From: Georgenia sp. EYE_87
GTDB lineage: Bacteria > Actinomycetota > Actinomycetes > Actinomycetales > Actinomycetaceae
Assembly (NCBI RefSeq): GCF_023148685.1
Contig: NZ_JAHXNL010000014.1
Coordinates: 1-64,000 of the forward strand
Reading direction: 5' to 3'
DNA length: 64,000 nt
Part shown: positions 4,085 to 55,618 of the stretch, piece by piece
How the letters are laid out: each line of letters opens with the position of its first letter
Numbering within the stretch: the first letter of the stretch is position 1
Program-made: the position numbers and the translations under genes
Notes under the pieces: model-generated
What the model was told of the DNA's origin: nothing
The model's input: the letters and a program-made list of their open reading frames with translations, nothing else
The model's database searches: none

Positions 4085-4124
4085 CCTTCCCTGAGCCAGG
4101 GCCACAGCGAGGCAGGAGGAGCGG

Positions 4125-37959: not shown

Positions 37960-37965
37960 GCCCCG

Positions 37966-37971
37966 ACCATA
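37966..37971 (-). promoter_or_regulatory. -10 box for leaderless glgC
   Basis: TATGGT on the minus strand lies 6 bases before the glgC ATG. The shared 151-base region to glgM also holds GCAAC (38002-38006) and GTTGC (38019-38023), a loose inverted repeat that might be an operator. Confidence 0.45.
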
Positions 37972-38110
37972 TGGCCGAGAGCCGTGGCCCGTCGCGAGAT
38001 GGCAACAAATTGCACCGTGTTGCGTGGCTCACCCTCCGACAGGGCATGCTGTGCTCGCCGAATCGTGCTCCGGGGCCGGTGGCCCGTCCGACGAAGGAAG
38101 AGAAGGAACC

Positions 38111-40229: not shown

Positions 40230-40236
40230 GGGGACA

Positions 40237-40242
40237 AGCCTA
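40237..40242 (-). promoter_or_regulatory. -10 box for leaderless unknown gene
   Basis: TAGGCT on the minus strand, 7 bases before the ATG at 40229 and no ribosome-binding site in the gap. It is identical in sequence and spacing to the serB box. Confidence 0.5.
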
Positions 40243-40319
40243 GTTCTGGGCGCGGCGTAGCCCGTACGACGGCCGTCCACGCCTCGGCGTGCGCGCACGG
40301 GCAGGGGTCTGAGGTGTTC

Positions 40320-40325
40320 TAGGGT
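40320..40325 (+). promoter_or_regulatory. -10 box for leaderless ABC ATPase gene
   Basis: TAGGGT is 7 bases before the ATG at 40333. No ribosome-binding site and no good -35. Confidence 0.5.
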
Positions 40326-40332
40326 CGGTGCC

Positions 40333-41127
40333 ATGGGTGATGTGCTGGAGCTGAACGACGTCTCCGTCCGCCGCGGGAACAGGATGATCCTCGACGGCGT
40401 GGACTGGTCCGTGAACGAGGGCGAGCGCTGGGTGGTGCTCGGGCCGAACGGGGCGGGCAAGACGACCGTGATCCAGCTCGTCGCCGGGCGGCTGCACCCG
40501 ACCACCGGCACCGTGACGATCATCGGCGAGGAGGTCGGCCGGACCGACCTCGCCGAGCTGCGGCCGCTCGTCGGTCTGGCCTCGGCGGCGCTGGACCAGC
40601 GGCTCCCGTCGGGGGAGCGGGCCATCGACGTCGTCGTCACCGCCTCCTACGGCATCACCGGGCGCTGGCGCGAGGAGTACGACGAGCTCGACCTCGACCG
40701 GGCCCAGACGCTCCTCGACGTCTTCGGGGTCGGTCACCTCGCCGAGCGCACCTACGGCACGCTCAGCTCGGGCGAGCGCAAGCGGGTCCAGATCGCCCGC
40801 GCCCTCATGCCCGACCCCGAGGTGCTGCTCCTCGACGAGCCGGCCGCGGGTCTCGACCTGGGCGGGCGCGAGGAGCTCCTCGCGGCGCTGTCGGAGCTCG
40901 CCGGGGACGGACGCTCCCCGGTCATGGTGCTGGTCACGCACCACGTCGAGGAGATCCCGTCTGGCTTCACGCACGCCCTGCTGCTGCGCGACGGCGTCGT
41001 CGAGGCGGCCGGGCCGATCGAGGACGTCCTGACCCCCCAGCACCTCTCGGCCGCGTTCGGCCTCGAGCTCGAGGTCGAGCGGCACCGGGACCGCTACAGC
41101 GCCCGGGCCGCCGGCACGGCACGCTGA
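40333..41127 (+). CDS. Stand-alone ABC transporter ATP-binding protein
   Basis: A 264-residue ATPase with Walker A GPNGAGKTT (about 37-45), signature LSSGERKRVQIARAL and Walker B LLLDEPAAGLDLGG, then THHVEEIPSGFTHALLL (switch His). It resembles metal or ModF-like ATPase subunits that act without an obvious permease. None of the flanking genes encodes a permease, so the partner is either elsewhere or absent. The start ATG fits a leaderless transcript. Confidence 0.85.
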   Translation: MGDVLELNDVSVRRGNRMILDGVDWSVNEGERWVVLGPNGAGKTTVIQLVAGRLHPTTGTVTIIGEEVGRTDLAELRPLVGLASAALDQRLPSGERAIDVVVTASYGITGRWREEYDELDLDRAQTLLDVFGVGHLAERTYGTLSSGERKRVQIARALMPDPEVLLLDEPAAGLDLGGREELLAALSELAGDGRSPVMVLVTHHVEEIPSGFTHALLLRDGVVEAAGPIEDVLTPQHLSAAFGLELEVERHRDRYSARAAGTAR

Positions 41128-41319
41128 CCCGGCTGCCGTAGCGCCCGGCGGGCGGCCGCGTGCTGCAGCGCCCGGCCCGCGGCCGCGCGTGCCGTCAGCG
41201 CCCCGCGCGTTGGTGGGCCGCTGTGTCGGTGGGTCCCGATAGGATCTACCTCACACGACGACAACATCGACGCAGGTCAGCCGCGCGAGGACGCGCGTCA
41301 GCCTGGGGAACGAGGGGAC
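41128..41319. other. Intergenic region before nfeD
   Basis: This 192-base stretch has no gene. An imperfect direct repeat GCGCCCGGC(G/C)(G/C)GCGGCCGCG lies at about 41140-41158 and 41168-41186. TAGGAT at 41240-41245 could be a -10 box, but no -35 is clear. Confidence 0.5.
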
Positions 41320-41772
41320 ATGGGCTGGCTCTGGTGGCTGGGCGCGGCACTGGTCCTCGGCGTCGTCGAGATGCTGACCGTGGACCTGATCTTCCTCATG
41401 TTCGCCGGCGGTGCGCTCGCGGCCATGCTCGTCGCCCTGCTCGGTGCGCCGTTCTGGGTGCAGATCCTCGTCTTCGCGATCGTCTCCGCAGCCCTGCTCT
41501 TCGTCGTGCGGCCGTGGGCCAAGAGGTTCCTCGACCGCTCGACGCCGGACACCGCCACAAACATCGCCGCGCACGTCGGACGTGAGGCGACCGTGCTCAT
41601 CGACGTCACCGAGCACGCCGGCCGGGTCAAGCTCGCGGGCGAGGTCTGGACCGCCCGCGCCGCCCGGCACGGCAGCGTGCTGCCCACCGGCACCACCGTG
41701 CGCGTGGTGCGCATCGACGGCGCGACCGCCGTGGTCGACGCCACCGCCGACGACCAGCTGTACCAGTCCTGA
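41320..41772 (+). CDS. NfeD-like membrane protein
   Basis: A 150-residue protein with three to four hydrophobic segments (WWLGAALVLGVVEMLTVDLIFLMFAGGAL and VQILVFAIVSAALLFVV) followed by an OB-fold domain (about 85-145, GREATVLIDVTEHAGRVKLAGEVWTAR). Short NfeD proteins almost always pair with an SPFH/stomatin gene, which is the next gene, and they help organise membrane microdomains. Start ATG with GAACGAGGGGAC upstream. Confidence 0.9.
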   Translation: MGWLWWLGAALVLGVVEMLTVDLIFLMFAGGALAAMLVALLGAPFWVQILVFAIVSAALLFVVRPWAKRFLDRSTPDTATNIAAHVGREATVLIDVTEHAGRVKLAGEVWTARAARHGSVLPTGTTVRVVRIDGATAVVDATADDQLYQS

Positions 41773-41806
41773 CCCACCCCAGCGCCACCCCAACCCGAGG
41801 AGCAGC

Positions 41807-43171
41807 ATGGCCGAGAGCGTCGGCGGCATCGTCCTGATCATCGTCCTGATCCTGGTCGGCATCTTCGTCATCGTCGCGATCACGCGCGCGGTACGGATCG
41901 TCCCCCAGGCCGTCGCCCTGATCGTGGAGCGCCTGGGCAAGTACCAGACCACCATGTATGCCGGCCTGCACTTCCTCATCCCGTTCGTCGACAAGGTGCG
42001 TGCCGGCGTCGACCTGCGCGAACAGGTGGTCTCCTTCCCGCCGCAGCCGGTCATCACCTCCGACAACCTCGTGGTCAGCATCGACACCGTCATCTACTTC
42101 CAGGTGACCGACCCGAAGTCGGCGACGTACGAGATCGCCAACTACATCACCGGTATCGAGCAGCTGACCGTCACCACGCTCCGCAACGTCATCGGCTCGA
42201 TGGACCTCGAGCAGACCCTGACCAGCCGCGACCAGATCAACGGTCAGCTGCGCGGGGTGCTTGACGAGGCGACCGGGCGCTGGGGCATCCGCGTGAACCG
42301 CGTCGAGCTCAAGGCGATCGACCCGCCCGCCTCGGTGCAGGGCTCCATGGAGCAGCAGATGCGTGCCGAGCGCGACCGCCGTGCGGCCATCCTCACCGCC
42401 GAGGGCGTGAAGCAGTCCCAGATCCTCACCGCCGAGGGCGAGAAGCAGGCCGCCATCCTGCGTGCGGAGGGCCAGGCTCAGTCCGCGATCCTCAAGGCGC
42501 AGGGCGAGTCCCGCGCGATCCTGCAGGTCTTCGACGCCATCCACCGCGGCAAGCCCGACAGCCGCCTCCTGGCCTACCAGTACCTGCAGATGCTCCCGGA
42601 GATCGCCAACGGCAGCTCCTCCAAGCTCTGGGTGATCCCCACGGAGTTCACCACCGCCCTCAACGGCATCTCGAAGGGGTTCGGCGGCCTCGGTGCCTCC
42701 GGCGACGGCGGGGGACCGGACCTCGACGCGGGCGAGCACCCCAAGGTCGACTTCGGCGACTACGGCCAGGGTCTGTCCAAGAACCTGCAGGAGACCACGC
42801 TGCAGGACCCCGACGAGGCGCTCGCCCAGGCCCGCGGGGAGGCGCAGCGGGCGACGTCGGAGGCGTCGTACGCGGGCGAGGGGTCCGGCATGCCGTTCTC
42901 CCGGTCCGCCGAGGCGGGGCAGCAGCCGGCCGAGGCGACGCCGACCCGCGCCCAGCGCCGGGCGGCCTCCGAGGCGCGCATCGAGGAGGCGCTGGAGGCC
43001 GGCGGTGACCGCGCCCGCCGGGAGGCGCAGCGCCAGGCCGAGGAGCTCAGCGAGCGCACCCGGACCAGCCCCGCGGGGCCCGGGCCCCAGGAGGGGCAGC
43101 AGGAGCCCACGGACACCTCCCGCTTCGCCCCGCCGCAGGACGACCAGGGCGGCGAGCCCGGGCAGCGCTGA
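41807..43171 (+). CDS. SPFH/stomatin (Band 7) family membrane protein
   Basis: A 454-residue protein. A single N-terminal helix (GGIVLIIVLILVGIFVIVAI, 6-25) is followed by the Band 7 domain (about 30-200: VIVERLGKYQTTMYAGLHFLIPFVDKV, TVTTLRNVIGSMDLEQTL) and a coiled coil with repeated AEG/QAAILRAEGQ. The last 150 residues are Gly/Glu/Arg-rich and disordered, longer than in QmcA-type proteins. It forms oligomeric membrane assemblies, probably with the NfeD protein 34 bases upstream. GAGGAGCAGC precedes the ATG. Confidence 0.92.
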   Translation: MAESVGGIVLIIVLILVGIFVIVAITRAVRIVPQAVALIVERLGKYQTTMYAGLHFLIPFVDKVRAGVDLREQVVSFPPQPVITSDNLVVSIDTVIYFQVTDPKSATYEIANYITGIEQLTVTTLRNVIGSMDLEQTLTSRDQINGQLRGVLDEATGRWGIRVNRVELKAIDPPASVQGSMEQQMRAERDRRAAILTAEGVKQSQILTAEGEKQAAILRAEGQAQSAILKAQGESRAILQVFDAIHRGKPDSRLLAYQYLQMLPEIANGSSSKLWVIPTEFTTALNGISKGFGGLGASGDGGGPDLDAGEHPKVDFGDYGQGLSKNLQETTLQDPDEALAQARGEAQRATSEASYAGEGSGMPFSRSAEAGQQPAEATPTRAQRRAASEARIEEALEAGGDRARREAQRQAEELSERTRTSPAGPGPQEGQQEPTDTSRFAPPQDDQGGEPGQR

Positions 43172-43174
43172 CGT

Positions 43175-45268
43175 CTATTCAGGTCCGGCGCCGGCGGGCT
43201 CGAGCGGCCCGCCGGCGCCGGTGTCCCAGCCCGTCTCCCCGGTCAGCAGGGCGGTGGTCTGCAGGACGAGAAAGTGCGAGCGCAGCAGCTGCGCGGCGAC
43301 CTCACCCCCGCCCGGCGCCGGCGCGAGCTCGGCCGGGAAGACGTCCAGGCCGACGCCGCGGGCGCGGCGGTGATGCTCGAGCAGCTGAGCGGTCAGGGCG
43401 GCCGGGGAGGCGGCGCCGGTGCCCCGCTCGGCCTGCGCGACCAACCAGCCGCGCAGGTCCAGGAGCGCCGCCGGTACGACGGCGAGGCGGCTCCCCAGCG
43501 GTTGGGCGACACGCTCGCCGGGACCGCGAGCCCGTGGCCTGCCCCGCCGCCCGGCGGGTGCGGCGAAGTGCAGCGCCTGGACGGCGTCGCCGGCCGGCCG
43601 GTCGGTGTGGACCAGGCTGAGCGGCTCGCCGCTGAGTCCGGTGGCGTCCCGCCGCAGGCGGCAGACGAGCAGCGCACCCTCGGCGGTGCCGTCCCCCGCG
43701 ATGTCCTCGACCCGGTCGACCAGGTGCGCCGTCTCGGCGGTGTACGCCACCGTCAGCGGCAACGTGACGCCGTCGCGGTCGACCGCCACCCAGGTCAGGG
43801 CCTGGGACGTCGGGTCGAAGAACGCGGTCCCGTACCGCGCGGGGCGCAGGACCGCCCAGTCGCGCAGCGGGTCGGGCAGGTCGAGGAGGCCGGCCGAGTC
43901 CCGGGCGAGGGCGCCCCACGAGTCGACGACGGGCAGCACGTCGGCGAGCTCTTCGCCGGAGAGCGGGTGGACCGCTGCCCGGGTGCGGTCGACGCCGGAC
44001 AGGCGGCCCCCGGCGCTCAGCAGCGCGTCGGTGAGCACCACCCGGGCGCCGGTCGCGGCGGACGGGGAGGACAGCCCGCTCCACGGTCCGGCCGAGGCGT
44101 AGCGTGCGCGGGGGTCGAAACCGTGGAGCATCTCCGGGCGGGCGTCGGTGAGGGACACGAACCGTGACTGCTCGGGCCACCAGAACAGCGTGGTCAGTCC
44201 CCGGTAGCCGGACGCTGCACGCCAGGGCGCGGCGCCGAGCCCGAGGAGCTCCATCGTGCGGACCGCGTCGTACCGGTTCCGGGCCCGCCCGACCAGCCGG
44301 GCGGGGGCGCTGCCGGCGGTCGCGGCCGCCTCGAGGGCAGACACCAGCGCGTACGCGATCGACGCCTCGTCGAGGAGCCGGTGCTCGTCGGCCCGGGCGG
44401 ATCGCTCGAGCAGCAGCTCGACGTGGTCGGCGAGACGCCGCAGCAGCAGCGCGAGCCGGTGGTACTCGGCCCCCTGCGCCCACACCGCCACCGTCTCGTA
44501 ACGCTGATGCACGGAGGCCGAGAGGTGGGACAGGCCGAGCGCCACGGTGTCGGTGATGAGGCGGGAGGTGGTCGCGCGCAGGCGTGACCGTGTGAGGTCC
44601 AGGTCGTCCGCCGCCCGGGCGGGACGGCCGGGCTCGACGTCGGCAAGCTCGGCGCCGTGGGCCCGCTGGTAGGCCAGCACCGCCGCCACCTGGTACTTCT
44701 CGACGGCGGACAGCCGGGTGTCGGGCACCAGGCCGGGCGCTCCGCCGCCCATGTACCGGAAGATCAGGAAGGGGTGGGAGAACGTGATCGACACGTTCCG
44801 GCCGCTCTCGACGCGCACGCCGGCGCGCTCGAGATCGTCGACCAGCTGGCGGGCCCACCGGTAGCCGGGCCGGCCCGCGTGCCGGAGGAGCGCGTCGGGG
44901 TCGAGCCCCATGAGCTCCCGGTGCAGGGTGTCGTCCTCGGTGCCGGTGCCGGTGCCGGTGCCGGTGCCGGCGCCGGAGTCCCCGCCGTCGGCTCCCGATG
45001 CCAGCCACAGCCCGGCGGCGACGACGTGCTGGCACGTCGTCCCGCTCGGGCACGAGCAGCTGGCGTGGGTCGGACCACGCGCGTCGAGGGACACCTCGTG
45101 CGGGCCGACGCGCAGCCGCAGGACCTGCTCGTCGTCCGCGAGGACCGCGACCTCGACCCTCCCGAGGTCCTTGCGTGCGCGGCGGAGCAGGCCGCGGCTG
45201 GTGAGCGCCGCCCAGGCCTCGTCGTCGTACCGCTCGAGCTGGGCCACGACGGCGGCGCGCACGCTCAC
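43175..45268 (-). CDS. SWIM zinc-finger protein (YehQ-like)
   Basis: A 697-residue protein. The SWIM finger CxCx5CxH is at about residues 65-75 (ASCSCPSGTTCQHVV), preceded by a beta-rich segment as in other SWIM proteins. The remainder is large, mostly helical then beta-rich, without known catalytic motif. A GTGTGTGTG stretch near residue 105 is coded by a GTGCCG microsatellite. SWIM fingers bind DNA or protein partners. The GTG at 45268 overlaps the VWA stop (GTGA). It is the last gene of the DUF4132-MoxR-DUF5682-VWA-SWIM cluster, matching E. coli yehQ in position and domain. Confidence 0.85.
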   Translation of the reverse strand: MSVRAAVVAQLERYDDEAWAALTSRGLLRRARKDLGRVEVAVLADDEQVLRLRVGPHEVSLDARGPTHASCSCPSGTTCQHVVAAGLWLASGADGGDSGAGTGTGTGTGTEDDTLHRELMGLDPDALLRHAGRPGYRWARQLVDDLERAGVRVESGRNVSITFSHPFLIFRYMGGGAPGLVPDTRLSAVEKYQVAAVLAYQRAHGAELADVEPGRPARAADDLDLTRSRLRATTSRLITDTVALGLSHLSASVHQRYETVAVWAQGAEYHRLALLLRRLADHVELLLERSARADEHRLLDEASIAYALVSALEAAATAGSAPARLVGRARNRYDAVRTMELLGLGAAPWRAASGYRGLTTLFWWPEQSRFVSLTDARPEMLHGFDPRARYASAGPWSGLSSPSAATGARVVLTDALLSAGGRLSGVDRTRAAVHPLSGEELADVLPVVDSWGALARDSAGLLDLPDPLRDWAVLRPARYGTAFFDPTSQALTWVAVDRDGVTLPLTVAYTAETAHLVDRVEDIAGDGTAEGALLVCRLRRDATGLSGEPLSLVHTDRPAGDAVQALHFAAPAGRRGRPRARGPGERVAQPLGSRLAVVPAALLDLRGWLVAQAERGTGAASPAALTAQLLEHHRRARGVGLDVFPAELAPAPGGGEVAAQLLRSHFLVLQTTALLTGETGWDTGAGGPLEPAGAGPE
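43185..43221. terminator. Bidirectional terminator hairpin at convergent gene ends
   Basis: CCGGCGCCGGCGGG at 43185-43198 pairs perfectly with 43208-43221 across a 9-base loop. It begins 14 bases after the SPFH stop and lies inside the last codons of the minus-strand SWIM gene, so both convergent transcripts would form it. The two genes are only 3 bases apart. Confidence 0.7.
44940..44975. repeat. GTGCCG hexanucleotide microsatellite
   Basis: Five exact copies of GTGCCG (44940-44969) followed by GCGCCG lie within the SWIM gene. The unit of 6 keeps the frame, adding or removing dipeptides in a flexible linker. Confidence 0.85.
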
Positions 45269-46449
45269 GAGGTCACCTCCACCAGCCACTCGGCGAGCCT
45301 GCCCGGCGTGAGCGCGGCGATGCTCATGCCGCAGTCGGCGAGACGCTGGGCGATCTCCCGGTCGTAGTGCGGGTGGGCCTCGCCGTCGAGCGCGGCCAGG
45401 CCGATGAGCGTCACCCGCGACTCCGCGAGCGTGCGCACGGCGCGGACGAGCTCGCCGGGCGGGGCGCCCTCGCAGAAGTCCGTGACGAGCACGAGGACGG
45501 TGCGCTGCGGGTTCTCGACGAGCTGGGAGCAGTAGCGCACCGCCTGGGCGATGTCGGTGCCGCCGCCGAGCTGGACGCGCATGAGCACCTCAACCGGGTC
45601 CTCGACCTGGTCGGTCAGGTCGACGACGGCGGTGTCGAAGACGACCAGCCGCACCCGGAACGCGGGCAGCCCGGAGAGGATCCCGGCCATGACGGCGCTG
45701 TGGATCACCGATCCCACCATGGAACCGCTCTGGTCGACGCACACGATGACGTCCCACGGGAGGCGCCGGGTGTTGCGCTCGAAGAACAGCACCTCCTGGA
45801 GCACCAGCTGACCGCGGGCGGCGTCGAAGTGCTTGAGGTTGCGCCGGACGGTGCCGGCCGCGTCGAGGTTGGCGGCGATCTGCACGGGGGAGTGGCGGTC
45901 GCGGCTGAGCCGACCCGACATGGCCCGGCGCACGTCCGTCCGGAGCCGGCGGGTCAGCTCCTCGACCACCTGCCGGATGATCCGGCGCGCGACGACCAGG
46001 GCCTGCTCGCCGAGGTGGCCCTTGAGCGCGAGCAGCGTCCGGAGCAGCTGCTCGCTCGGCTCGAGCCGCTCGAGAGTCTGCGGGTCGGTGACGAGCTCGG
46101 TGAGCCCGTAGCGCTCCAGCGCGTGGCCCTCGATCACCTCGGCCGTCTCGCGCGGGAACAGCTCCCGCACCTCGCCGAGCCAGGTGACGAGACCGGGCGT
46201 GGACCCCTCCAGGGAGCCGGGGGTGATCTCGGCCGGCCGGTCCTCCGGCCGCAGACCCCTGCCGCCGTACTCGCGCCCGTAGAGCTGGTCGAGCGCGGCG
46301 TCCAGGCGCGCCGACGTGCCTCCGCTGCAGCCGCCGAGAGAGCTCGACGCGTACCGGCCGAGGACGAGCCGCCACCGTTCCAGCACCTCGTCGTGCGCGC
46401 CGTCGTGCGTGGCGCCCCCCGCGCCGACGTCCCCCGTGCCGCCGCTCAT
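45265..46449 (-). CDS. VWA-domain protein of MoxR-VWA system (YehP-like)
   Basis: A 394-residue protein. The C-terminal von Willebrand A domain has a complete MIDAS: DQSGS near residue 236 (VIVCVDQSGSMVGSV), Thr in GGGTDIAQA and Asp in VTDFCEGA. The N-terminal 200 residues are helical (LEPSEQLLRTLLALKGHLG, RTDVRRAMSGRLSRD). Such proteins work with MoxR AAA+ ATPases as chaperone or metal-insertion partners. ATG 46449 overlaps the DUF5682 stop by 4 bases. It corresponds to E. coli yehP in the homologous locus. Confidence 0.9.
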   Translation of the reverse strand: MSGGTGDVGAGGATHDGAHDEVLERWRLVLGRYASSSLGGCSGGTSARLDAALDQLYGREYGGRGLRPEDRPAEITPGSLEGSTPGLVTWLGEVRELFPRETAEVIEGHALERYGLTELVTDPQTLERLEPSEQLLRTLLALKGHLGEQALVVARRIIRQVVEELTRRLRTDVRRAMSGRLSRDRHSPVQIAANLDAAGTVRRNLKHFDAARGQLVLQEVLFFERNTRRLPWDVIVCVDQSGSMVGSVIHSAVMAGILSGLPAFRVRLVVFDTAVVDLTDQVEDPVEVLMRVQLGGGTDIAQAVRYCSQLVENPQRTVLVLVTDFCEGAPPGELVRAVRTLAESRVTLIGLAALDGEAHPHYDREIAQRLADCGMSIAALTPGRLAEWLVEVTS

Positions 46450-48848
46450 GCCCTCGCTCCCCACGCGGCGAGGCCGTCCCGTGCGAGCAGGTCGGCGGTC
46501 GCCCGCGACACCTCGAGATGCCGGCGGACCGTGCCCTCGTCGACGTCCGAGCGCCGGAGCACCCCGAGGTCCGTCGCACCGTGCAGGGCGGCGACCGCCT
46601 GGGCGATCCGGTCGGTCTCCCGCGGCGTCATCCCGGCGAACGCGAGGCGCAGTTCGGGCAGGTGCGCCACGAAGGTCTCCCGCTCCCAGGCGGCCAGCCG
46701 CCCGTCGAGCGCGCCGAGGAGCGCGGGCTCCTGCCACGCCGCCTCCCGGGCCGTGCGGAGCAGCCCGCTGACGAAGCCGACGCCGTCGGCGGCCGACGCC
46801 GTGCCGGACAGGTGCCCGGCGATCGCCCGCGCCACCGACTCCGGGTTGAGCCGGCCGGCGGAGTACCGCAGACCGGTCGCACCGCCGCGCACCAGCGGCG
46901 CCTCGTGCACGGACGCGAGCCGGTCCACCAGCTGCCAGTAGAGGTCGGCGTCGAGGGCGCTGCCCGCCTCGCCGAGGAGGACCTCCCGCAGCTGGACGAG
47001 GGCGTCGACCGCGTCGGCCGGGTCGCACTCCTGCCCGGACAGCTCGCGGCCGAGGAACACGGTGCGCTCGTACGCGGTGCGGAGCAGGGCGGGCAGCGGC
47101 TCGAGCGTGCGTGCCTCGAGCGGTTCGCGCGCCTCACGCAGCAGGGCGAGCTGCGCCGTCGCCGCGGCCAGCGCATCGAACGCGACGTCGGTGGCCAGGG
47201 CCTCCCGGACAAGCTCCAGCGGCTCCCCGACGTGGCGGTGGAGCCCGAGCACGCAGGCCCGGACGAGCAGCGAGGTCGCGGCCGGGGCGCTGCGGGCACC
47301 CGCGGCGCGCTCGGCCTCCAGCTGCGCCTCGAAGCGGGTGGCAACGGCGGCCGGGAGCGTCTCGCCGAGGACGGACATCTCCGCCAGCGCGCCGTCGGTC
47401 GCCGGGCTCCACCGGTACTCCCAGCGCTCCTGGAGCCGGCCCAGGCCGTGGCCGTGGACGAAGTCGGGCCCCGCCGCGCGGACCGCGAAGGGCACGCCCA
47501 GCAGGGCCAGCCCGTGCAGCAGGCGGCTCGTCTCGCGGTGGGCCGGCCGCCGGTACAGGTCCAGGGCGGCGGTCCGGGGCTCACCGTCCATGTTCAGCTT
47601 CTGACGCCGCAGCCGCCCGAGGGTGTCGGCGACCAGCGGTGGTGTGCCCGCCCCGGGCGGGACCGTGCCCACCGCCGTGCCGGTGAGCACGTGCCGGGTG
47701 ACGGCTGCCACCAGAGCGCCCTCGACGTCGGCGTCGCCCTTGACGAAGCAGCTGGTGACCGCGTCGACGAGGTCGCTGCGCAGCGGCGCGGCCCGGTCCC
47801 GCAGGTGCGCCAGCCGCAGCGCCTGCTCGAACGCGGCGGAGACGGCGGGCATCGGGACGGGGACCGTGCGGCGTCTCAGCTCCTCGGCGACGTCGAGGAT
47901 CGCCGCGAGCGCCGCGTGCGCCCGGGGCTCCTCCGCGCCCTCGGTCATGAGCTGCCAGAGCTGCTGGTGCCAGGCGGGGGAGGTCATGCCGGACGCGTAG
48001 CCGTTCAGCCGCTCCAGCCGCTCGAAGGTGTAGCGCACGACGGCGGCCCCGCCGGTCACCCCGTCGGCCCGTACGGCTGGCCGGGCGGGCGGCTCGGCCA
48101 GCAGCGCGGGGAGCGCCACCGCGTGGAAGCCGCCGACGACGACGAGCACCGGACCGTCGCCCGGGCCCCGTCCCGTCAGGGCCTGGGCGATGTGCCAGAC
48201 CATCTCCGCCTCGCGGGCGGTGGTGCCGTCCCGGTCGAGCTCGGCCGCGGGGTGGTCCTGCCGCGCCAGCTGGCACCACGCCGCGACGCGGGCGGTGTGC
48301 TCGGCGGCGGGCACCGCTGCGGCGTCGGCCTCGAGCAGATGCTCCCAGAGGTCCTCGTGGTCGCGGCAGCCCAGCTGCTCGGCCAGCGCCCGCAGGCGGG
48401 CACTGGTGCGGTAGTGGTGCTCGTCCAGCAGCGGCTCCTCGGCGTCCGGGCCGTACTCCCCGGCGCAGGCGAGGGACTGCTCGGCGAGGTCGAGGTCGAT
48501 GAAACGGGCCGGGATGTCGCGCACCGCGGCCTCCCGCAGGGCGACGAGCTCGGGGGAGTAGTCGCAGAAGGGCAGCTGGGCGCTCCACCGCTCCGCGGTC
48601 ACGCCCTTCCCGCGGACCGCCCACGTGTAGACCGACAGCGGCATCCGCGCCTCGGGGTGCGTGAGCAGGGGGATCAGCGGCGTGAGCGAGCGCGGCCCCT
48701 CCACCAGGACCACCGACGGGCGGTGCTCCTCGACCGCCCGGCGGACCTGCCACGCGCACGCCGGGCTGTGGTGCCGCACCGGCACGACCACCAGCTCGTC
48801 GCTGACGAGGGAGGCCGCGAGGTCACGGACGCCGGCGGTGCTGAGCAT
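46446..48848 (-). CDS. DUF5682 family protein (YehM-like)
   Basis: An 800-residue protein without a known activity. The N-terminus LVVVPVRHHSPACAWQVRRAVEEHRPSVVLVEGP and a later VLVVVGGFHAVALPALL resemble the ordering of motifs in TraB/EreA-like proteins (a GxxH-type His near the start, a Glu after a strand, another His later), but this is only my reading. The second half is helical, Ala/Leu/Arg-rich. ATG 48848 lies 9 bases after the MoxR stop, and the 3' end overlaps the VWA gene. It corresponds to E. coli yehM. Confidence 0.82.
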   Translation of the reverse strand: MLSTAGVRDLAASLVSDELVVVPVRHHSPACAWQVRRAVEEHRPSVVLVEGPRSLTPLIPLLTHPEARMPLSVYTWAVRGKGVTAERWSAQLPFCDYSPELVALREAAVRDIPARFIDLDLAEQSLACAGEYGPDAEEPLLDEHHYRTSARLRALAEQLGCRDHEDLWEHLLEADAAAVPAAEHTARVAAWCQLARQDHPAAELDRDGTTAREAEMVWHIAQALTGRGPGDGPVLVVVGGFHAVALPALLAEPPARPAVRADGVTGGAAVVRYTFERLERLNGYASGMTSPAWHQQLWQLMTEGAEEPRAHAALAAILDVAEELRRRTVPVPMPAVSAAFEQALRLAHLRDRAAPLRSDLVDAVTSCFVKGDADVEGALVAAVTRHVLTGTAVGTVPPGAGTPPLVADTLGRLRRQKLNMDGEPRTAALDLYRRPAHRETSRLLHGLALLGVPFAVRAAGPDFVHGHGLGRLQERWEYRWSPATDGALAEMSVLGETLPAAVATRFEAQLEAERAAGARSAPAATSLLVRACVLGLHRHVGEPLELVREALATDVAFDALAAATAQLALLREAREPLEARTLEPLPALLRTAYERTVFLGRELSGQECDPADAVDALVQLREVLLGEAGSALDADLYWQLVDRLASVHEAPLVRGGATGLRYSAGRLNPESVARAIAGHLSGTASAADGVGFVSGLLRTAREAAWQEPALLGALDGRLAAWERETFVAHLPELRLAFAGMTPRETDRIAQAVAALHGATDLGVLRRSDVDEGTVRRHLEVSRATADLLARDGLAAWGARA

Positions 48849-48857
48849 CGCCCGCGC

Positions 48858-49958
48858 TCACCGGTCCAGCTCGCGGCGCGCATCGAGCGCACGCCGCCAC
48901 CGCCGGTCCCGCCTGGCCCGCTCCTTGACGACGACGTCGAAGTAGTGCCGCAGCTTCGTGCCGTCCTGCGGCTCGTCCTTGAGCACGGTGCCGATGAGCT
49001 GGCGCGCCACGTGCTCCCCGCCCACCTCGCCGTCGCCGAAGTAGTGGGCGTCGAGGCCGGCGGCGTAGCCGACCGCCACGGCCTCGGCGGAGGAGAGGAC
49101 CGCGGTGGGTCGCTCGACCACCGTCCCCTCCGCGGTCACGCCGTCGCGCAGGTCGTGGAAGGCGGTGACGAGCAGGTCGACGACGTCCTCGCTCATCCGC
49201 GTGGTGACCTCCGCCTGCCGCAGCAGGGCGTCGGTCTGCTCTCGCACGAGCCGGGCCTCGAGCCGCCGGTCGGCGATGGGGCGGACGGTCTCGAAGTTGA
49301 ACCGGCGCTTGAGCGCGCTCGACATCTCGTGGACCCCGCGGTCGCGGAGGTTGGCGGTGGCGACGACGTTGAAACCCGGCCGGGCGAAGACGGTCTCCGC
49401 ATCGCCGTCGAGCTCGGGCACGTGGAGGACCTTGTCGGAGAGCAGCCCGATGAGCACGTCCTGGATCTCCGGCTGGACGCGCGTGACCTCCTCGAACCGG
49501 CACAGCGCGCCGCGCTCCATCGCCCGGTACATCGGGCCCCTGACGAGCGCACGCTCGCTGGGCCCCTCGGCGAGCAGGAGCGCGTAGTTCCAGGAGTACG
49601 CGATCTGGTCGCCGGTGGTGCCCGAGGAGCCCTGGACGGTGCAGGTGGAGTCCCCGGAGATCGCGGCGGCGAGCAGCTCGGAGAGCATCGACTTGGCGGT
49701 GCCCGGCTCACCGACGAGCAGGAGCCCCCGGTTGCTCATGAGGGTGACGACGCACCGGTCGACCAGGGCGTCGTCGCCGTAGAACTTGCGGCTGACCCCG
49801 AGGGCCGCCTCGCCGATCACGAACGCGCGCACCGCGCGGGGGGACAGGCGCCAGCCGGCCGGACGGGGGCCGGCGTCCGCCCGGGCGAGGGCGGCGAGCT
49901 CCGCCGCGTGGACCTGTTCGGCGGGGGCGCGGAGGACCGCGGACGGTGGCACGCTCAC
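48858..49958 (-). CDS. MoxR-type AAA+ ATPase, YehL subfamily
   Basis: A 366-residue AAA+ ATPase. Walker A GEPGTAKS is near residue 86, Walker B FEEVTR near 156, sensor 1 is in VVATANLRDRG near 201, and the arginine-finger stretch SSALKRRFNFETV follows. The C-terminal helical lid is present. MoxR ATPases remodel client proteins together with VWA partners. The start is GTG 49958, overlapping the DUF4132 stop by 4 bases. Classification as YehL type rests on its neighbours (DUF4132, DUF5682, VWA, SWIM) and is likely. Confidence 0.9.
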   Translation of the reverse strand: MSVPPSAVLRAPAEQVHAAELAALARADAGPRPAGWRLSPRAVRAFVIGEAALGVSRKFYGDDALVDRCVVTLMSNRGLLLVGEPGTAKSMLSELLAAAISGDSTCTVQGSSGTTGDQIAYSWNYALLLAEGPSERALVRGPMYRAMERGALCRFEEVTRVQPEIQDVLIGLLSDKVLHVPELDGDAETVFARPGFNVVATANLRDRGVHEMSSALKRRFNFETVRPIADRRLEARLVREQTDALLRQAEVTTRMSEDVVDLLVTAFHDLRDGVTAEGTVVERPTAVLSSAEAVAVGYAAGLDAHYFGDGEVGGEHVARQLIGTVLKDEPQDGTKLRHYFDVVVKERARRDRRWRRALDARRELDR

Positions 49959-52900
49959 CGGCCCACCACCTTCTCCCAGGCGGGGTCGTACCCGGTGCCG
50001 TCGGCGGCGACGAGGCGCATGTCGCCGTAGGCCTCCGAGAGCAGGACGGCCGGGACGTCGCCGAGCAGGACACCCGCGCGCTCGCCGGGGCCCCCGCCGG
50101 AGCCGCCCCCGAGGCCCGCGCCGTCTCCCGGCTGCCTGACGAACCGCAGGGCCGTGAGCGCGACCCTGTTGTTCTCCTCCGGCAGGCCGTTGCCGGAGAA
50201 CTCGAGGACGGTGGTCAGGCCCAGGGTGGGGAACCGCTTCTCGTAGGTGTAGAACCACCCGCCGTCCTCCGTCGGGCCACGGGTGTAACCGAGCTTGCCC
50301 GCCCGGCCGCGCAGGGCGAACGCCTCGAGCACGTGCCCGCGGAAGTCGGCGATCTCCGACCCGGCGGCTCCGTCGTCGGGCAGGAGGTAGGTGCCCTTCC
50401 CGAGCTGGACGAAGAGCGGGACCACCTCGTAGTCCGCCAGGTGCTCGACCCACCTCGCCGCGGTCCGCGGGTCGAGGTTGGTGTCGTGCGCCAGACTCAC
50501 CCGGGCGCCGGGCGCGATGGTGACGGGCTCGTCGTCGACGTCGGTCAGCGAGCCGTCCTCGAGCGGACGGAAGACGACGGCGGGCCCCTCCGGGGTGGCC
50601 GCCGTCCAGACGAGCCTCCGCACCAGGTGCCGCATCACCGGGTGCCGTGCGAGGTAGCGGTCCCAGTCCTCGTACGGCCAGGCACGCTCCGTGCAGAGCG
50701 CCTCGTAGAGCCGCTGGGTCTGCAGCTGCACCACGGCCTTCAGCTCCTTGCGCGCCGCGGCCAGGGTCTTCCTGGCCTCCGCGGCGCGGTCCGGGTCGTC
50801 GGTGCGGCGCGGGGCTGGCAGCGAGGCGATCCTCGTGTCCTCCGGCGAGCGCACCTCGAGCGTCAGGTCCGGCCGCAGCACGGCGGAGAACGTCCGCTCG
50901 CCGTAGCTGAGCTCGAGGCGTCCGGACTCGTCCAGGCCGGCCGTGGGGACCGTCCGGTCGGCCAGCTCCTCCACGGTCCATCCCTTCCGCTCCGCCAGCG
51001 CCAGGGCCTGCCGGTTCGCCTCCTCCTGGATGCTCTTGGTGCGGAACCGGGAGCCCACCGAGAGCATGAGCTGGGTGGCGGACGGGTGCTCGATCCAGCC
51101 CAGCATGCCCACGAGCGCCTTGGACTGGGAGGCGCGCCGGCCGTACCAGTCCTTGAGGTACCGGGCCACGGGTGCGGCGGCGCGCTCGCGCGCACACGCG
51201 GCGACGACGGCGAGCAGCCCCTTGGACGCCGCGGCGGACCCGACCGGTTCGCGCAGGAACCGCGGCAGGTACGCGGCGGTGAGCTCCTCCACCGAGGCGC
51301 CGAGGAGGGGGTTGTTCTGGTAGCCCTGCGGGTACCGGGTCATGGACTGGTGCGTCCAGCCGGCCTCCTGGGCGGCCCGCCGGTGGGCCTCCTCGGCGTC
51401 GATCGGCCGGGTGTCCTCCGCCAGCCACGACTCGAGGACGAACTGCCCGAGCCGCTCCCGGTCCACCGGGTCGAACATGGCGCAGTACTTGCGCAGCATC
51501 GCGTTCGGCTCCGGGCTCCTCGCCCGCACGGCCTGGGCGAGCAGCCACTGCAGCGTCTCGGTGCCGACCGGCTCGCCGCTGTCGGACCAGCGCACCTCGG
51601 GCAGGCCGGACCAGGGGAACCACCCGAGCTCCTTGGGCAGGCCCTTGGCGACGGCGGCCCGCGCCTTCTTTCGCAGGTCGGCGCGGTCGACGTACCGCTC
51701 GACGGGACGGCCGAGCGCCTCCAGCGCGTCGAGCATCGCGCCCTTGGCCAGGTCGTGCTTCTCCTTGCCGACGGCGGTCTCCAGGGCCGGCACGGCGGCC
51801 TCGGCGCGCCGACGGCGCAGCCAGCCGGCCGCCTCGGCGCGCGTGTCGAACTTCCCGTCCTGCAGGGCGGCGACGACGCGGGCCTCGGTGCCCGGGAGCG
51901 CGTCGAGGGCCACCTGGGCCGGGCGCCGGTCCACCCGGTTCCCGGCGAGGGCGGTGTCGAGGAGTGCGTCGACGGCCCGGCGGGGGAGCGTCGGCAGGGT
52001 CGCCAGCGCAAGGTAGGGGGCGTCCGGGGCGACCGACCAGTCGCGGTCCGTGCTGGACAGCGTGCGCAGCACGACATCCAGGTGAACCAGGACGAACGGA
52101 GCCACGTGCTCGTCCGGCCAGCCCCGGCCCAGGCGGGGGGCCCAGGGGGCGGCGAAGCGCCGGTAGACGGAGCTGGCGCCGTCGAGGCCGAGCTCGTCCA
52201 GCATCGTGGCGACCTCGAGCAGCGTGGGCCGACCGGTGCGGGCGTGCTCGGCCTCGAGGAGGGTCGCCGCGGTGCGCGACAGGGCGCCGCCGTGCTCGAC
52301 GAGGTGGCCGACGTGGTGCAGCAGCGCGACGATGCCGGCCGGCCCCAGCGGCAGGCGTCCGGCGCGACGCTCGAGCAGGTGCGCCACGACGTGCGGCGCG
52401 TCCTCCCTCGGGGTGGCGGGGTGCGTGCCGCGCCCGAGCTCGGACAGGACCCGCCTCAGCGAGCCGGGGTCGAGCGGGGGCGTGCGGTGGCGTCCGCCCG
52501 TGAAGCCCGGGTACTGGGCCCGCGACCTGGCCTCGGACTCCTCCGCCCTGCGGTTCGCGATCTCGATGTCCCGGTTGGCGTGCGCCCAGAGCTCCGCCAG
52601 CTCCGCCGTGAGCTCGGCCGTGACAGGGATCCGCCAGTCGACGGTCGGGCGGGGTGGGGCGACGGGGTCGCCGTGCCCAGGCCCGGCCGGGTCGGGCGCC
52701 CACTCCGCGGCGAGGGCCCGGACGCTCGCCGCCCGGTCCGTCGAGGCGCGCTCGAGTGCCCACGCCCGTGCGTCGTCGTCCGCCGCGCCCAGGGCGCGCA
52801 GGGCGTTCAGCCGGATCTCCGGCGTGCCGGACACCGCCAGCCCCTTCAGGGGCTCCACCAGCAGGGCACCGCAGCGGGCGGCGAGCGGCGCGACCGCCGC

Positions 52901-53662
52901 CCGGACCTGCTTGCTGCTGGAGGCCAGCAGACCGGCGAGCTCCGGCGCGAACAGGGTGAGAGCGTCGTCCGGCAACGGTGCCAGCATCTCGAGCGCCACG
53001 AGCTGGCCGCGGGCGCCCTGGCCGGCGACGAGAGGGCGGAGCACGTCGGCGTCACGCGTGACGGCGGCCGCGTAACCGCTCAGCTCCCGGATGCTCCTGC
53101 GGGGCCCCCCGTAGGAGCGCTCGGGCTTCCCCGAGTCGCGGAAGGCGGCGGCCATGAGGTCGTGCCGCTGCGCGCCGGCCGCCACCAGGGCGTCCTCGAC
53201 GACGGCGATGTCCGCCGGGACGGTCGTGCGGCGTCGTCGGTGGCTCCCGAGGAAGTCGGCCAGGTGGACCACGAGGTTCTCGGCCCAGTGCGCGCCCGCC
53301 ACCGGCTCGAGCCGCACCGACCACGACCCCGCGGACACCTCGAGCACGCGCGCCCACCGCACGACGATCTCTGGGGGCACGTCGCCGAGACCGGCGCAGA
53401 GCGCCTCCATCGCCTCCCGGTCGCCGTCGAAGCCGACGCTCCCGGCCCCGAGAGTGACGCGGCCCGTGTTCGTCCGCAGCACCGGGTGCTTCAGCACCTC
53501 CGCCGGGCTGCCGGTGAGGACGTAGTCGCGCAGCTCGCCGGGGAGGCCGGGGGAGGCGGTCGCGAACGGCGCGAGCACGCGTTCCAGGGCGGAGCGCCAC
53601 TGGCGGGGCACCGCGGTCGCCGCGTCGTCGCGCCGCCCGGTCAGCATCTGCCACAGTGCCAT
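49955..53662 (-). CDS. DUF4132 family giant protein (YehI-like)
   Basis: A 1235-residue soluble protein. The N-terminal two-thirds consist of Ala/Leu-rich helical repeats that look like HEAT or ARM repeats (for example LVALEMLAPLPDDALTLFAPEL, EIRLNALRALGAADD). The DUF4132 domain is at about 960-1150 (AARKELKAVVQLQTQRLYEALC, LARHPVMRHLVRRLVW, GKLGYTRGPTEDGGWFYTYEKRF). No WGR domain is evident. ATG 53662 follows AAGGGG. It leads the five-gene cluster and may be the scaffold or client recognised by the MoxR-VWA pair; that is inference. Confidence 0.88.
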   Translation of the reverse strand: MALWQMLTGRRDDAATAVPRQWRSALERVLAPFATASPGLPGELRDYVLTGSPAEVLKHPVLRTNTGRVTLGAGSVGFDGDREAMEALCAGLGDVPPEIVVRWARVLEVSAGSWSVRLEPVAGAHWAENLVVHLADFLGSHRRRRTTVPADIAVVEDALVAAGAQRHDLMAAAFRDSGKPERSYGGPRRSIRELSGYAAAVTRDADVLRPLVAGQGARGQLVALEMLAPLPDDALTLFAPELAGLLASSSKQVRAAVAPLAARCGALLVEPLKGLAVSGTPEIRLNALRALGAADDDARAWALERASTDRAASVRALAAEWAPDPAGPGHGDPVAPPRPTVDWRIPVTAELTAELAELWAHANRDIEIANRRAEESEARSRAQYPGFTGGRHRTPPLDPGSLRRVLSELGRGTHPATPREDAPHVVAHLLERRAGRLPLGPAGIVALLHHVGHLVEHGGALSRTAATLLEAEHARTGRPTLLEVATMLDELGLDGASSVYRRFAAPWAPRLGRGWPDEHVAPFVLVHLDVVLRTLSSTDRDWSVAPDAPYLALATLPTLPRRAVDALLDTALAGNRVDRRPAQVALDALPGTEARVVAALQDGKFDTRAEAAGWLRRRRAEAAVPALETAVGKEKHDLAKGAMLDALEALGRPVERYVDRADLRKKARAAVAKGLPKELGWFPWSGLPEVRWSDSGEPVGTETLQWLLAQAVRARSPEPNAMLRKYCAMFDPVDRERLGQFVLESWLAEDTRPIDAEEAHRRAAQEAGWTHQSMTRYPQGYQNNPLLGASVEELTAAYLPRFLREPVGSAAASKGLLAVVAACARERAAAPVARYLKDWYGRRASQSKALVGMLGWIEHPSATQLMLSVGSRFRTKSIQEEANRQALALAERKGWTVEELADRTVPTAGLDESGRLELSYGERTFSAVLRPDLTLEVRSPEDTRIASLPAPRRTDDPDRAAEARKTLAAARKELKAVVQLQTQRLYEALCTERAWPYEDWDRYLARHPVMRHLVRRLVWTAATPEGPAVVFRPLEDGSLTDVDDEPVTIAPGARVSLAHDTNLDPRTAARWVEHLADYEVVPLFVQLGKGTYLLPDDGAAGSEIADFRGHVLEAFALRGRAGKLGYTRGPTEDGGWFYTYEKRFPTLGLTTVLEFSGNGLPEENNRVALTALRFVRQPGDGAGLGGGSGGGPGERAGVLLGDVPAVLLSEAYGDMRLVAADGTGYDPAWEKVVGR

Positions 53663-53798
53663 GTCGCACCCCTTCCGGCGGTGCGCCCGCCGCGCCCGTC
53701 GAGGTGAAAGTAGCGGAGGAACGGACGGCGGATGACGGTTTCGCGGCTCGTGTGCGGCCGCCCGTCCGTCAGTGGGAGGGCCGGCCCGGAGAACTCCG

Positions 53799-53827
53799 TG
53801 GCTCGCCCGCACCGCGGCGCGTACGCT
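53799..53827 (+). promoter_or_regulatory. Promoter of the heterodimeric ABC exporter operon
   Basis: TGGCTC at 53799-53804 and TACGCT at 53822-53827 are 17 bases apart, 42 bases ahead of the ATG. The 207-base region to the divergent DUF4132 gene shows no other clear element. Confidence 0.45.
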
Positions 53828-53869
53828 GGTGCGGCTGCGACGGCCCGCGGCAGAAGAGAAGTAGGTCCG

Positions 53870-55618
53870 ATGCTGCTGAAAGTCCTCCGACGGTTCCTGC
53901 GCCCCTACCGGCGCGACGTCGTGGTCATCGTGGTGCTCCAGATCGTGCAGACCGTCGCGGCGCTGTCCCTGCCCACCCTCAACGCCGACATCATCAACGA
54001 CGGCGTGGTCCGGGGGGACACCGCCTACATCCTCCGCGTCGGCGCGCTGATGCTCGGCATCAGCGCGGTCCAGGTGGTCTGCGCCGTCGCCGCCGTCCGC
54101 CTCGGCGCGAGGACGGCCATGGCCGCGGGCCGCGACATGCGGGCCGCGGTCTTCCATCGCGTGCAGCGGTTCTCGGCCGCCGAGATGGGCCGGTTCGGCG
54201 CCCCGAGCCTGATCACGCGCAGCACCAACGACGTCCAGCAGATCCAGATGGTCACGGTGCTGACCTTCACCATCATGGTGATGGCTCCGATCATGATGGT
54301 CGGCGGCGTGTTCATGGCCCTGCAGCAGGACGTCGGTCTCTCCGCGCTGCTCCTCGTCGTCGTCCCGGTGCTCGGGGCCGTCATGGGGCTGGCGATCTGG
54401 CGGATGGCCCCGCTGTTCAAGGTGATGCAGAAGCGGATCGACCGCATCAACCTGGTCCTGCGCGAGCAGATCTCCGGGGTGCGCGTCGTCCGGGCGTTCA
54501 ACCGCCAGCCCACCGAACGCGCCCGCTTCGACGAGGCCAGCACGGAGCTGATGGCCACCGCGCTCGGCGTCGGCAAGATCATGGCCGTCGTCTTCCCGGC
54601 GGTGCAGCTGATCATCGGTGCGTCGTCGGCGGGGGTCATCTGGTTCGGTGCGGCCCGCATCGACGCCGGGGCGATGGAGGTCGGCTCGCTCGTCGCGTTC
54701 CTCAACTACCTCATGCAGATCCTCATGTCCGTGCTGATGGCGGTCATGATGTTCGTGATGGTGCCGCGCGCCGAGGTCAGCTCCGAGCGTGTCAAGGAGG
54801 TCCTCGACGTCGAGCCCGAGATCGTCGTCCCGGCCGCCCCGGTCACGCTCCCCGTGCCGCCCGACGGCGGTCGCGGCCTCGTCGTCGAGCTCGACGGCGC
54901 GAGCTTCGGCTACGCCGGGGCGGAGTCGCCGGTGCTCTGCGAGGTCGACCTGCGCCTGGAGCCGGGACGGACGACGGCGGTGATCGGCTCGACCGGGTCG
55001 GGCAAGACCTCCCTGGTGAACCTGATCCCGCGGCTGGTCGACGTCACGGCCGGCGCGGTCCGCGTGGCCGGGGTCGACGTGCGCGACCTGGACCCGGGCG
55101 CGCTGCGCGACCGGGTCTCCCTCGTGCCGCAGAAGGCGTACCTGTTCTCCGGGACGATCGCCTCCACCCTGCGGCACGGGCGGCCGTCGGCCACGGACGC
55201 GGAGCTGTGGCGGGCCCTGGAGGTCGCCCAGGCGCGCGACTTCGTCGAGGCGCTGCCCGACGGGCTCGACGCGCCCGTGGAGCAGGGCGGCGCCAACTTC
55301 TCCGGCGGGCAGCGCCAGCGGCTGGCGATCGCCCGCGCGCTGGTGCGCCGGGCGGACGTCTACCTCTTCGACGACTCCTTCTCCGCCCTGGACTTCGCGA
55401 CCGACGCCCGCCTGCGCGCCGCCCTGCCGGCGGCGACCGGCGGGGCGACCGTGCTCGTCGTCGGTCAGCGCGTCGCCTCCATCCGCGACGCGGACCAGAT
55501 CGTCGTGCTCGACGACGGACGCGTGGTCGGCGTCGGGACGCACCACGGGCTCATGGAGACCTCGCAGACGTACCGGGAGATCGTGCTGTCCCAGCTGAGC
55601 GCGGAGGAGGCGGCATGA
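53870..55618 (+). CDS. Heterodimeric ABC exporter subunit 1 (degenerate catalytic site)
   Basis: A 582-residue type IV ABC half-transporter: six membrane helices (first VVVIVVLQIVQTVAALSLP) and a C-terminal ATPase. Walker A GSTGSGKT is at about 373-380 and the signature FSGGQRQRLAIARAL is canonical. Walker B ends in Asp-Asp (LFDDSFSALD), with Asp502 where the catalytic Glu is expected. This is the TM287-like subunit of heterodimeric exporters with one dead site. The ATG at 53870 follows AGAAGAGAAG. Substrate unknown (drug, lipid or peptide). Confidence 0.92.
   Translation: MLLKVLRRFLRPYRRDVVVIVVLQIVQTVAALSLPTLNADIINDGVVRGDTAYILRVGALMLGISAVQVVCAVAAVRLGARTAMAAGRDMRAAVFHRVQRFSAAEMGRFGAPSLITRSTNDVQQIQMVTVLTFTIMVMAPIMMVGGVFMALQQDVGLSALLLVVVPVLGAVMGLAIWRMAPLFKVMQKRIDRINLVLREQISGVRVVRAFNRQPTERARFDEASTELMATALGVGKIMAVVFPAVQLIIGASSAGVIWFGAARIDAGAMEVGSLVAFLNYLMQILMSVLMAVMMFVMVPRAEVSSERVKEVLDVEPEIVVPAAPVTLPVPPDGGRGLVVELDGASFGYAGAESPVLCEVDLRLEPGRTTAVIGSTGSGKTSLVNLIPRLVDVTAGAVRVAGVDVRDLDPGALRDRVSLVPQKAYLFSGTIASTLRHGRPSATDAELWRALEVAQARDFVEALPDGLDAPVEQGGANFSGGQRQRLAIARALVRRADVYLFDDSFSALDFATDARLRAALPAATGGATVLVVGQRVASIRDADQIVVLDDGRVVGVGTHHGLMETSQTYREIVLSQLSAEEAA

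Follow-up and report, generated by a model that had tools for sequence, protein, structure and literature searches.

What activity is encoded by a five-gene locus that recurs as a unit across bacteria, and for which no function was found in the literature that we searched? We examined this question for a locus of Georgenia sp. EYE_87, using a 64,000-nucleotide stretch of DNA (contig NZ_JAHXNL010000014.1, positions 1 to 64,000), hereafter the window. Five minus-strand genes spanning positions 53662 to 43175 encode a DUF4132 protein, a MoxR AAA+ ATPase, a DUF5682 protein, a CoxE-like VWA protein and a SWIM zinc-finger protein. In the literature searched, no two of DUF4132, MoxR and 'SWIM zinc finger' occurred in one paper, and the yeh names of the Escherichia coli counterparts returned lists or noise. 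The locus itself is of a known kind; the new part here is the putative link between DUF5682 and the TraB/TIKI superfamily, together with the idea of a hydrolase.

All five genes were present, in one minus-strand run, where a preliminary description made from the sequence alone had placed them, and Pfam bore out its family assignments. The DUF4132 protein (P0001, 1235 amino acids, 49955..53662; PF13569, 1.8e-42) is a relative of YehI that combines a HEAT-like solenoid with a C-terminal alpha/beta module; the DUF4132 domain proper was placed by Pfam at residues 944-1126 (50285..50833). The MoxR ATPase (P0002, 366 amino acids, GTG start, 48858..49958) is YehL-like and matches PF07728 AAA_5 at 7.4e-35. 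The DUF5682 protein (P0003, 800 amino acids, 46446..48848) matches PF18934 over nearly its full length (1.7e-99); it is a relative of YehM with an N-terminal TraB/TIKI-like domain (about residues 1-290) and a helical C-terminal part. The VWA protein (P0004, 394 amino acids, 45265..46449; PF05762 VWA_CoxE, 2.4e-52) is a relative of YehP, and the SWIM protein (P0005, 697 amino acids, GTG start, 43175..45268) is the counterpart of YehQ. This last Pfam placement is marginal by itself, as PF04434 scored 19.9 bits against a cut-off of 19.6. None of the five proteins had an NCBIfam match over the cut-off. Three of the junctions between the genes are 4-base overlaps and one is a 9-base gap. The end of the SWIM gene lies 3 bases from the end of a convergent Band_7 gene, and a divergent ABC transporter gene lies upstream of the unit.

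We collected 107 confirmed DUF5682 relatives by pattern search with the window DUF5682 protein. The relatives fetched come from ten phyla by record titles, and the best 80 of the 107 were used as loci. These 80 loci derive from patterns of the window's own DUF5682 and are therefore biased toward its kin. Profiles grown from the window proteins detected MoxR at 77 loci, VWA at 76, SWIM at 72 and DUF4132 at 69, many of the contigs being short. A locus counted as untruncated when the DUF5682 frame had over 7.5 kb of sequence to either side, which held for 51 out of 80. All five families were present in 47 of these 51; the exceptions had DUF5682 alone (L018), lacked DUF4132 (L026), or were without VWA or SWIM in the covered stretch (L035, L036). 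The order DUF4132-MoxR-DUF5682-VWA-SWIM was found in 30 loci and, with a second MoxR gene downstream, in one more, while 15 had DUF4132 at the end and five had other orders; one of two gene orders was kept on a single strand in 45 of the 51. The co-occurrence of the five families is far above chance. Clustering of the 2274 flanking open reading frames (ORFs) of at least 110 amino acids from the 80 loci gave a single cluster present in at least six loci, whose sample sequence reads as an ABC ATPase, and a conserved sixth gene was rejected on this basis. The set behaves as one unit, as the preliminary description had proposed: the neighbourhood survey found it complete in most untruncated loci, no shared sixth gene was found, and the whole set is missing from the site in 8 out of 8 congeners.

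Median identity to the window protein, over 41 common loci, was highest for MoxR (0.60), followed by VWA (0.51), DUF5682 (0.35), DUF4132 (0.30) and SWIM (0.26), as expected for a fixed motor with variable recognition parts. In a DUF5682 tree built by a quick method, the window formed a group with three actinobacteria (99). This group is nested in a set of 16 rows (100), the remaining 12 of them Pseudomonadota, a pattern that suggests, short of proof, a transfer between phyla at some point.

DUF4132 genes stand in tandem pairs or as a triplet ahead of MoxR in L038, L039, L042, L049, L051 and L056 and in L015, L021 and L022; the loci with doubled or tripled DUF4132 include several from Pseudomonadota (Roseobacter-type) and Verrucomicrobiota. 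A short second ORF with a SWIM-family match of 38-60 bits follows the SWIM gene in L041, L044, L046, L054, L055, L059, L061-L063, L069, L074 and L076. These loci are Bacillota by title, except one from Spirochaetes and one untitled, and look as if the SWIM protein had been split in two.

Other architectures were sampled solely from 296 genomes of the window's phylum. DUF5682 was present in 21 of these genomes, DUF4132 in 15 (14 over the cut-off) and both in 12. Fisher's test gave p 1.6e-13 for this co-presence, a value that ignores kinship, with 8 of the 12 genomes from one genus. Ten out of 18 DUF4132 matches lay within 10 kb of a DUF5682 match, and one of the remaining eight was on a contig of 5.7 kb. 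MoxR, DUF5682 and VWA occurred together in 17 out of 17 regions fetched around DUF5682, out of 33 matches listed in the phylum. MoxR-DUF5682-VWA is a near-constant core, and its partners vary: DUF4132 plus SWIM, SWIM plus DUF5691, and TerD once. The window's arrangement recurred in L117 and L118. SWIM and DUF5691 genes beside the triad form a cluster seen in 7 of the 13 gene-called regions; within this group Pfam confirmed SWIM in L106, L109, L111 and L112 and DUF5691 in L109 and L112. Regions L114-L116 have PF13569 matches, MoxR-DUF5682-VWA and a weak SWIM-profile match (62-66 bits), and their giant ORFs (1584-1951 amino acids, by crude gene calling) had no Pfam match. L120 and L121 both start with the VWA gene. 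The VWA-MoxR-DUF5682 arrangement of L120 has a TerD-domain gene directly after DUF5682 (L120:7137-8618, minus strand), seen once, which is a possible link to Ter-type stress systems; TerD was rejected as a general partner, since none was identified in L121. Compared with each other, the SWIM families of the DUF4132-type and DUF5691-type loci gave an hhalign probability of 92.2. The idea that DUF5691 is a disguised DUF4132 was unsupported (hhalign probability 2.5).

The activity of the core may lie in DUF5682. We aligned 16 TraB/PrgY/GumN (PF01963) domains, from 11 of 25 genomes searched, and compared profiles with hhalign. DUF5682 residues 1-291 matched this alignment collinearly from end to end with a probability of 90.6 (E 1.5e-7 for one comparison). 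The alignment places H26 of motif 1 (RHHSP; codon 48771..48773) on the GTxH histidine of TraB, E50 of motif 2 (48699..48701) on the conserved Glu, R212 of motif 3 (RExxM, R212-M216; 48201..48215) on the arginine of the R(D/N) motif and H242 of motif 4 (GGFH; codon 48123..48125) on GAGH, all on the minus strand. A repeat with default settings gave a probability of 91.1 (E 1e-6, score 51.6) over 43 columns in the motif 3-4 stretch. The controls were far lower. Reversed TraB reached a probability of 0.9 (score 19.7) against the DUF5682 N-terminal domain, and 60 column-shuffle controls reached at most 0.7 (score at most 19.1). Fourteen blocks of the MoxR, VWA, SWIM and DUF4132 proteins and the DUF5682 C-terminal part reached at most 0.8 (20.0) against the DUF5682 N-terminal domain and at most 1.2 (20.7) against TraB.

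Conservation was assessed in sets from which hits shorter than 75% or longer than 140% of the window protein had been dropped. In DUF5682, the invariant or nearly invariant residues include R25-H26-H27-S28-P29, E50, R212-E213-M216 and G239-G240-F241-H242; the main set shows no variation at H26/H27, E50, R212/E213/M216 or H242. The H, the E, RExxM and GxxH were kept in 19 out of 19 sequences compared across architectures, E. coli YehM included. The AlphaFold2 model of DUF5682 has a mean predicted local distance difference test score (pLDDT) of 91.8 and a predicted template modelling score (pTM) of 0.86. It places H26 after strand 19-24 and E50 within strand 46-52; helix 209-226 contains both R212 and M216, and H242 comes just past strand 234-239. 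Passages of PMC6254334 describe TIKI enzymes as having a beta-sheet core and active members as carrying a 2His/2Glu set, and give the order His, Glu, His for these enzymes. By sequence and predicted secondary structure DUF5682 follows this order, with one His behind the first strand, Glu in the second strand and another His close to a late strand; of the candidate catalytic residues, two His and a single Glu stand where they would be expected. The N-terminal domain of DUF5682 appears to be a distant relative of TraB/PrgY/GumN in the TIKI superfamily, and it is from this similarity that we infer a fold and a possible catalysis. Placing DUF5682 in this superfamily would point to candidate catalytic residues and offer a biochemical hypothesis for the entire operon that can be tested directly, in a laboratory strain. 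None of the papers listed in the literature searched mentions DUF5682, DUF5691 or PF18934; the TraB link may already appear in TIKI or Ter-system literature.

The partner proteins retain the motifs of their families. In 75 sequences, conservation of the MoxR Walker A motif GEPGTAKS (49689..49712, minus strand; same octapeptide in YehL) is 1.00 at six of the eight positions, with G83 at 0.99 and S90 below the listing threshold of 0.85. The two adjacent glutamates E156-E157 of this protein are also invariant, at the position occupied by DE in most MoxR proteins. Its best match in the Protein Data Bank (PDB) was midasin (1.5e-8), and NorQ matched at 5.5e-6. The preliminary description had credited the VWA protein with an intact metal ion-dependent adhesion site (MIDAS), and this was upheld: the DxSxS motif (D239-S243; 45721..45735, minus strand), completed by T298 and D324, is invariant in the 75 aligned VWA proteins, with D239, S241, S243, T298 and D324 all at 1.00. 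No PDB chain matched the VWA protein at E 0.01. The SWIM motif CSCPSGTTCQH (C71-H81; 45026..45058, minus strand), found by pattern match, has C71, C73, C79 and H81 at 1.00 in 67 aligned family members. The DUF4132 protein has a HEAT_2 match below the cut-off. A model of its residues 560-1235 (the C-terminal 676) has a pLDDT of 93.4, and Foldseek returned mostly HEAT-like solenoids among the best 50 of 904 rows (best E 1.3e-3). Foldseek with the DUF5682 and DUF4132 models gave no fold assignment beyond these solenoids for DUF4132.

We tentatively favour a reading in which MoxR and VWA form an ATP-driven machine that switches on a TraB/TIKI-fold hydrolase or feeds it, the DUF4132 and SWIM proteins being the recognition modules. 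The YehL-like MoxR AAA+ ring would have the CoxE-like VWA protein, which bears the MIDAS, as its adaptor, in the way of NorQ-NorD and CbbQ-CbbO. The client dedicated to this machine would be the DUF5682 protein, whose N-terminal domain may have the TraB/PrgY/GumN hydrolase fold with a His/Glu/His set. The ring could mature or gate this putative enzyme, or feed it a substrate, and the HEAT-like DUF4132 and fast-diverging SWIM proteins would be exchangeable recognition or sensor modules. The role would likely be that of a conditional stress or protein-quality-control hydrolase, gained and lost as a block by lineages. Complex formation, the direction of action, the substrate and the trigger are parts of the model that we infer. 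A wider claim, which we hold to be unlikely, is that DUF5682 marks a widespread and so far overlooked class of AAA+-controlled proteolytic machines. In these, a TIKI-fold peptidase would be loaded or switched by a MoxR ring together with a VWA adaptor, and DUF4132/SWIM, DUF5691/SWIM and TerD would replace one another as recognition subunits. If true, the class would amount to a family of ATP-dependent proteases with a fold that is not known from Clp, Lon, FtsH or the proteasome.

Several results weigh against the hydrolase reading. The default hhalign run aligned the motif 3-4 stretch alone, confidence per column is low in the collinear alignment (Sum_probs 82 over 240 columns), and class II DUF5682 sequences aligned on their own reached a probability of only 24.3 against TraB. 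The Glu of the ExH motif, as in the Ere and RRSP enzymes, is absent, with RHH or CHH in 19 out of 19 DUF5682 sequences; it is also absent from the 16 TraB sequences used, 15 of which have G(T/S)xH. The full-length DUF5682 model had no Foldseek match at E≤0.001 (best E 0.2) and no TIKI protein among the best 50 of 406 rows, and PDB sequences searched with a DUF5682 profile yielded no match at E 1. ChaN gave a probability of 7.6 against DUF5682 and 16.4 against TraB itself; represented by three sequences from 20 genomes, it was too weak to serve as a second TIKI anchor. TIKI-like folds are not always active enzymes, and one named member lacks the catalytic set, according to passages of PMC6254334. 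The triad is sometimes split: L018 has DUF5682 alone, L016 has MoxR-DUF5682 without VWA in the covered stretch, and VWA-SWIM-DUF4132 is separate from MoxR-DUF5682 in L043 and L065.

The same genes could serve other purposes. Studied MoxR-VWA pairs insert metals (sections of PMC13036017 and PMC9976466), the window VWA protein is closest to the CoxE profile, and yehM is listed among the genes mutated in copper-exposed E. coli in excerpts of PMC12409786. The unit might on these grounds be a metal or cofactor maturase, in which MoxR-VWA would load a client encoded elsewhere and DUF5682 would use its TIKI-like fold for binding, as a carrier or for docking, and would be no hydrolase. However, no conserved metalloenzyme neighbour or travelling client gene was found among the 2274 flanking ORFs of the 80 loci, and we regard the maturase as rather unlikely. 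A DNA-linked stress module, in which SWIM and DUF4132/WGR proteins would bring the machine to nucleic acid after damage, seems quite improbable to us. The WGR gene yehF and the DUF4132 pseudogene yehH beside the E. coli locus would fit it, as would the rise of Deinococcus DUF4132 and WGR genes on DdrO depletion reported in parts of PMC8533742. But the window DUF4132 protein has no WGR match in Pfam, no WGR-like cluster was found in at least six of the 80 loci, and DUF4132 is also found away from the unit, with no DUF5682 match within 10 kb for 8 of the 18 matches (the one on the 5.7 kb contig among them).

A conflict or defence system, at which the preliminary description had hinted, would sense invasion and trigger an effector in the manner of MoxR-vWA ternary systems. 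MoxR-vWA pairs are the core of the proposed conflict systems of PMC7159879 (eLife, seen in part), and the window's locus is like them in this MoxR plus vWA core; the unit also has a patchy presence in the window's lineage, where 1 of 9 genomes in the genus carries it, and has a TerD neighbour once. Passages of PMC7159879 name VMAP, iSTAND, FtsH and beta-propeller as the third components of those systems. None of these was among the Pfam matches of the five proteins, the Pfam coverage of each component being unchecked, and a bpMoxR match of 23.7 bits was below the cut-off of 27. SWIM, DUF4132, TraB, Tiki and Yeh do not occur in the main text of that paper. We ran PADLOC (PADLOC-DB 2.0.0 of 2023) on the five proteins and ten flanking window proteins. 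The five gave a single match, for one protein, at E 0.026; the flanking proteins gave matches on two ABC-ATPase genes only (mad3, mad8, AriA and GajA profiles), which we read as cross-hits. At 80% coverage or more, yehL-yehQ is near-core in E. coli (5162 out of 5426 genomes). Matches were rare in a plasmid collection (18 in 72556 records), where the only three to cover 80% of the query were chromosome-sized, and phage records gave one weak match in 50697. With no credible PADLOC match, near-core status in E. coli and its own terms missing from that main text, the hint at defence is unsupported and we judge this explanation improbable.

The genomic site records part of the unit's history. A DUF5682 search of 79 relatives was positive only for the window genome and one genome of the same order (34-40% identity), with none of the eight other congeners positive. 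In all eight, the Band_7 and ABC transporter genes are adjacent and the five-gene unit is missing between them; the unit is accessory in the window's genus (1 of 9 genomes). When window positions 40001-57000 were compared by blastn with the sister genome G297 (L129), both flanks aligned and the segment 43231..53811 had no match. In G297, the closest congener, the DNA just past the Band_7 stop matches the 3' end of the window SWIM gene on the same strand. Its local score was 48, against a shuffle mean of 21.2 (standard deviation 3.1, maximum 35 in 1000), and four other congeners, L130-L133, scored 17, 30, 20 and 23, within the shuffle maximum. One reading frame of the G297 strip resembles the SWIM C-terminus by eye. 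A relaxed tblastn search gave mostly low-complexity noise, and its single match at the right place and on the right strand, in L129 (SWIM residues 667-697, E 3e-4), agrees with the local-score test. The strip is probably a SWIM-gene remnant. On the simplest reading, the common ancestor of the window species and G297 already had the unit, and G297 lost it by deletion. We also considered a recent insertion in the window species; because of the putative remnant, older presence with loss in G297 is more likely. In L134 and L135 a different reading frame, CapA-like by eye only, lies at the Band_7/ABC transporter junction, and the site itself is therefore variable. Elsewhere in the window, a glycosyltransferase gene (37853-39340, plus strand) has a secondary Pfam match to GT4-conflict (3.1e-15), above the cut-off and behind stronger ordinary glycosyltransferase matches.

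We compared the unit with known systems. DUF5682 is like TraB/PrgY/GumN and the TIKI superfamily in profile similarity above controls and in the common H, E, R(D/N/E) and GxxH positions. It differs from TraB/PrgY/GumN in having RHHSP where these have GTxH, in its large, helical C-terminal part and in its association with MoxR-VWA genes. NorQD is a worked MoxR-VWA precedent (PMC13036017, in part). With NorQ-NorD, CoxD-CoxE, CbbQ-CbbO and RavA-ViaA (the last three compared by description only), the unit shares a MoxR AAA+ ring and a nearby-encoded MIDAS VWA partner, here matching the CoxE profile. In contrast to those pairs, the pair described here is nearly always accompanied by DUF5682 plus DUF4132/SWIM or DUF5691/SWIM, and NOR, CO dehydrogenase and Rubisco genes were not among the flanking window proteins scanned.

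The closest counterpart is the yeh locus of E. coli K-12, where yehI, yehK, yehL, yehM, yehP and yehQ carry the five families in the window's order on one strand, in agreement with the correspondence drawn in the preliminary description. That YehL names a MoxR subfamily was likewise borne out in excerpts of PMC3893208 and PMC11432383. Identity between window and E. coli proteins is 47% for YehL (over 355 amino acids, with GEPGTAKS and RFEE in both, the window protein being YehL-like by this pairwise comparison), 46% over 370 amino acids for YehP, 29% for YehM and 27% over 339 amino acids for YehI. YehQ matched the window SWIM protein at only E 0.004 in pairwise blastp, and at 114 bits with the iterated family profile. 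Directly upstream of yehI lie yehF, encoding a WGR protein, and yehH, a pseudogene with DUF4132-profile matches (L105:2475-3299 and 3411-6270). Unlike the E. coli locus, the window's unit is flanked by Band_7 and ABC-transporter genes, with no WGR or second DUF4132 protein among the nine flanking proteins scanned; the window genome has one DUF4132 match. Excerpts of PMC12114223 list yehM among the genes expressed in one condition. Sections of PMC9334617 report 184 ST131 isolates with a disrupted DUF4132/yeh region, with a transposon in those resolved, and the region is probably dispensable in these isolates. The yeh locus is near-core in E. coli, whereas the unit is accessory in the window's genus.

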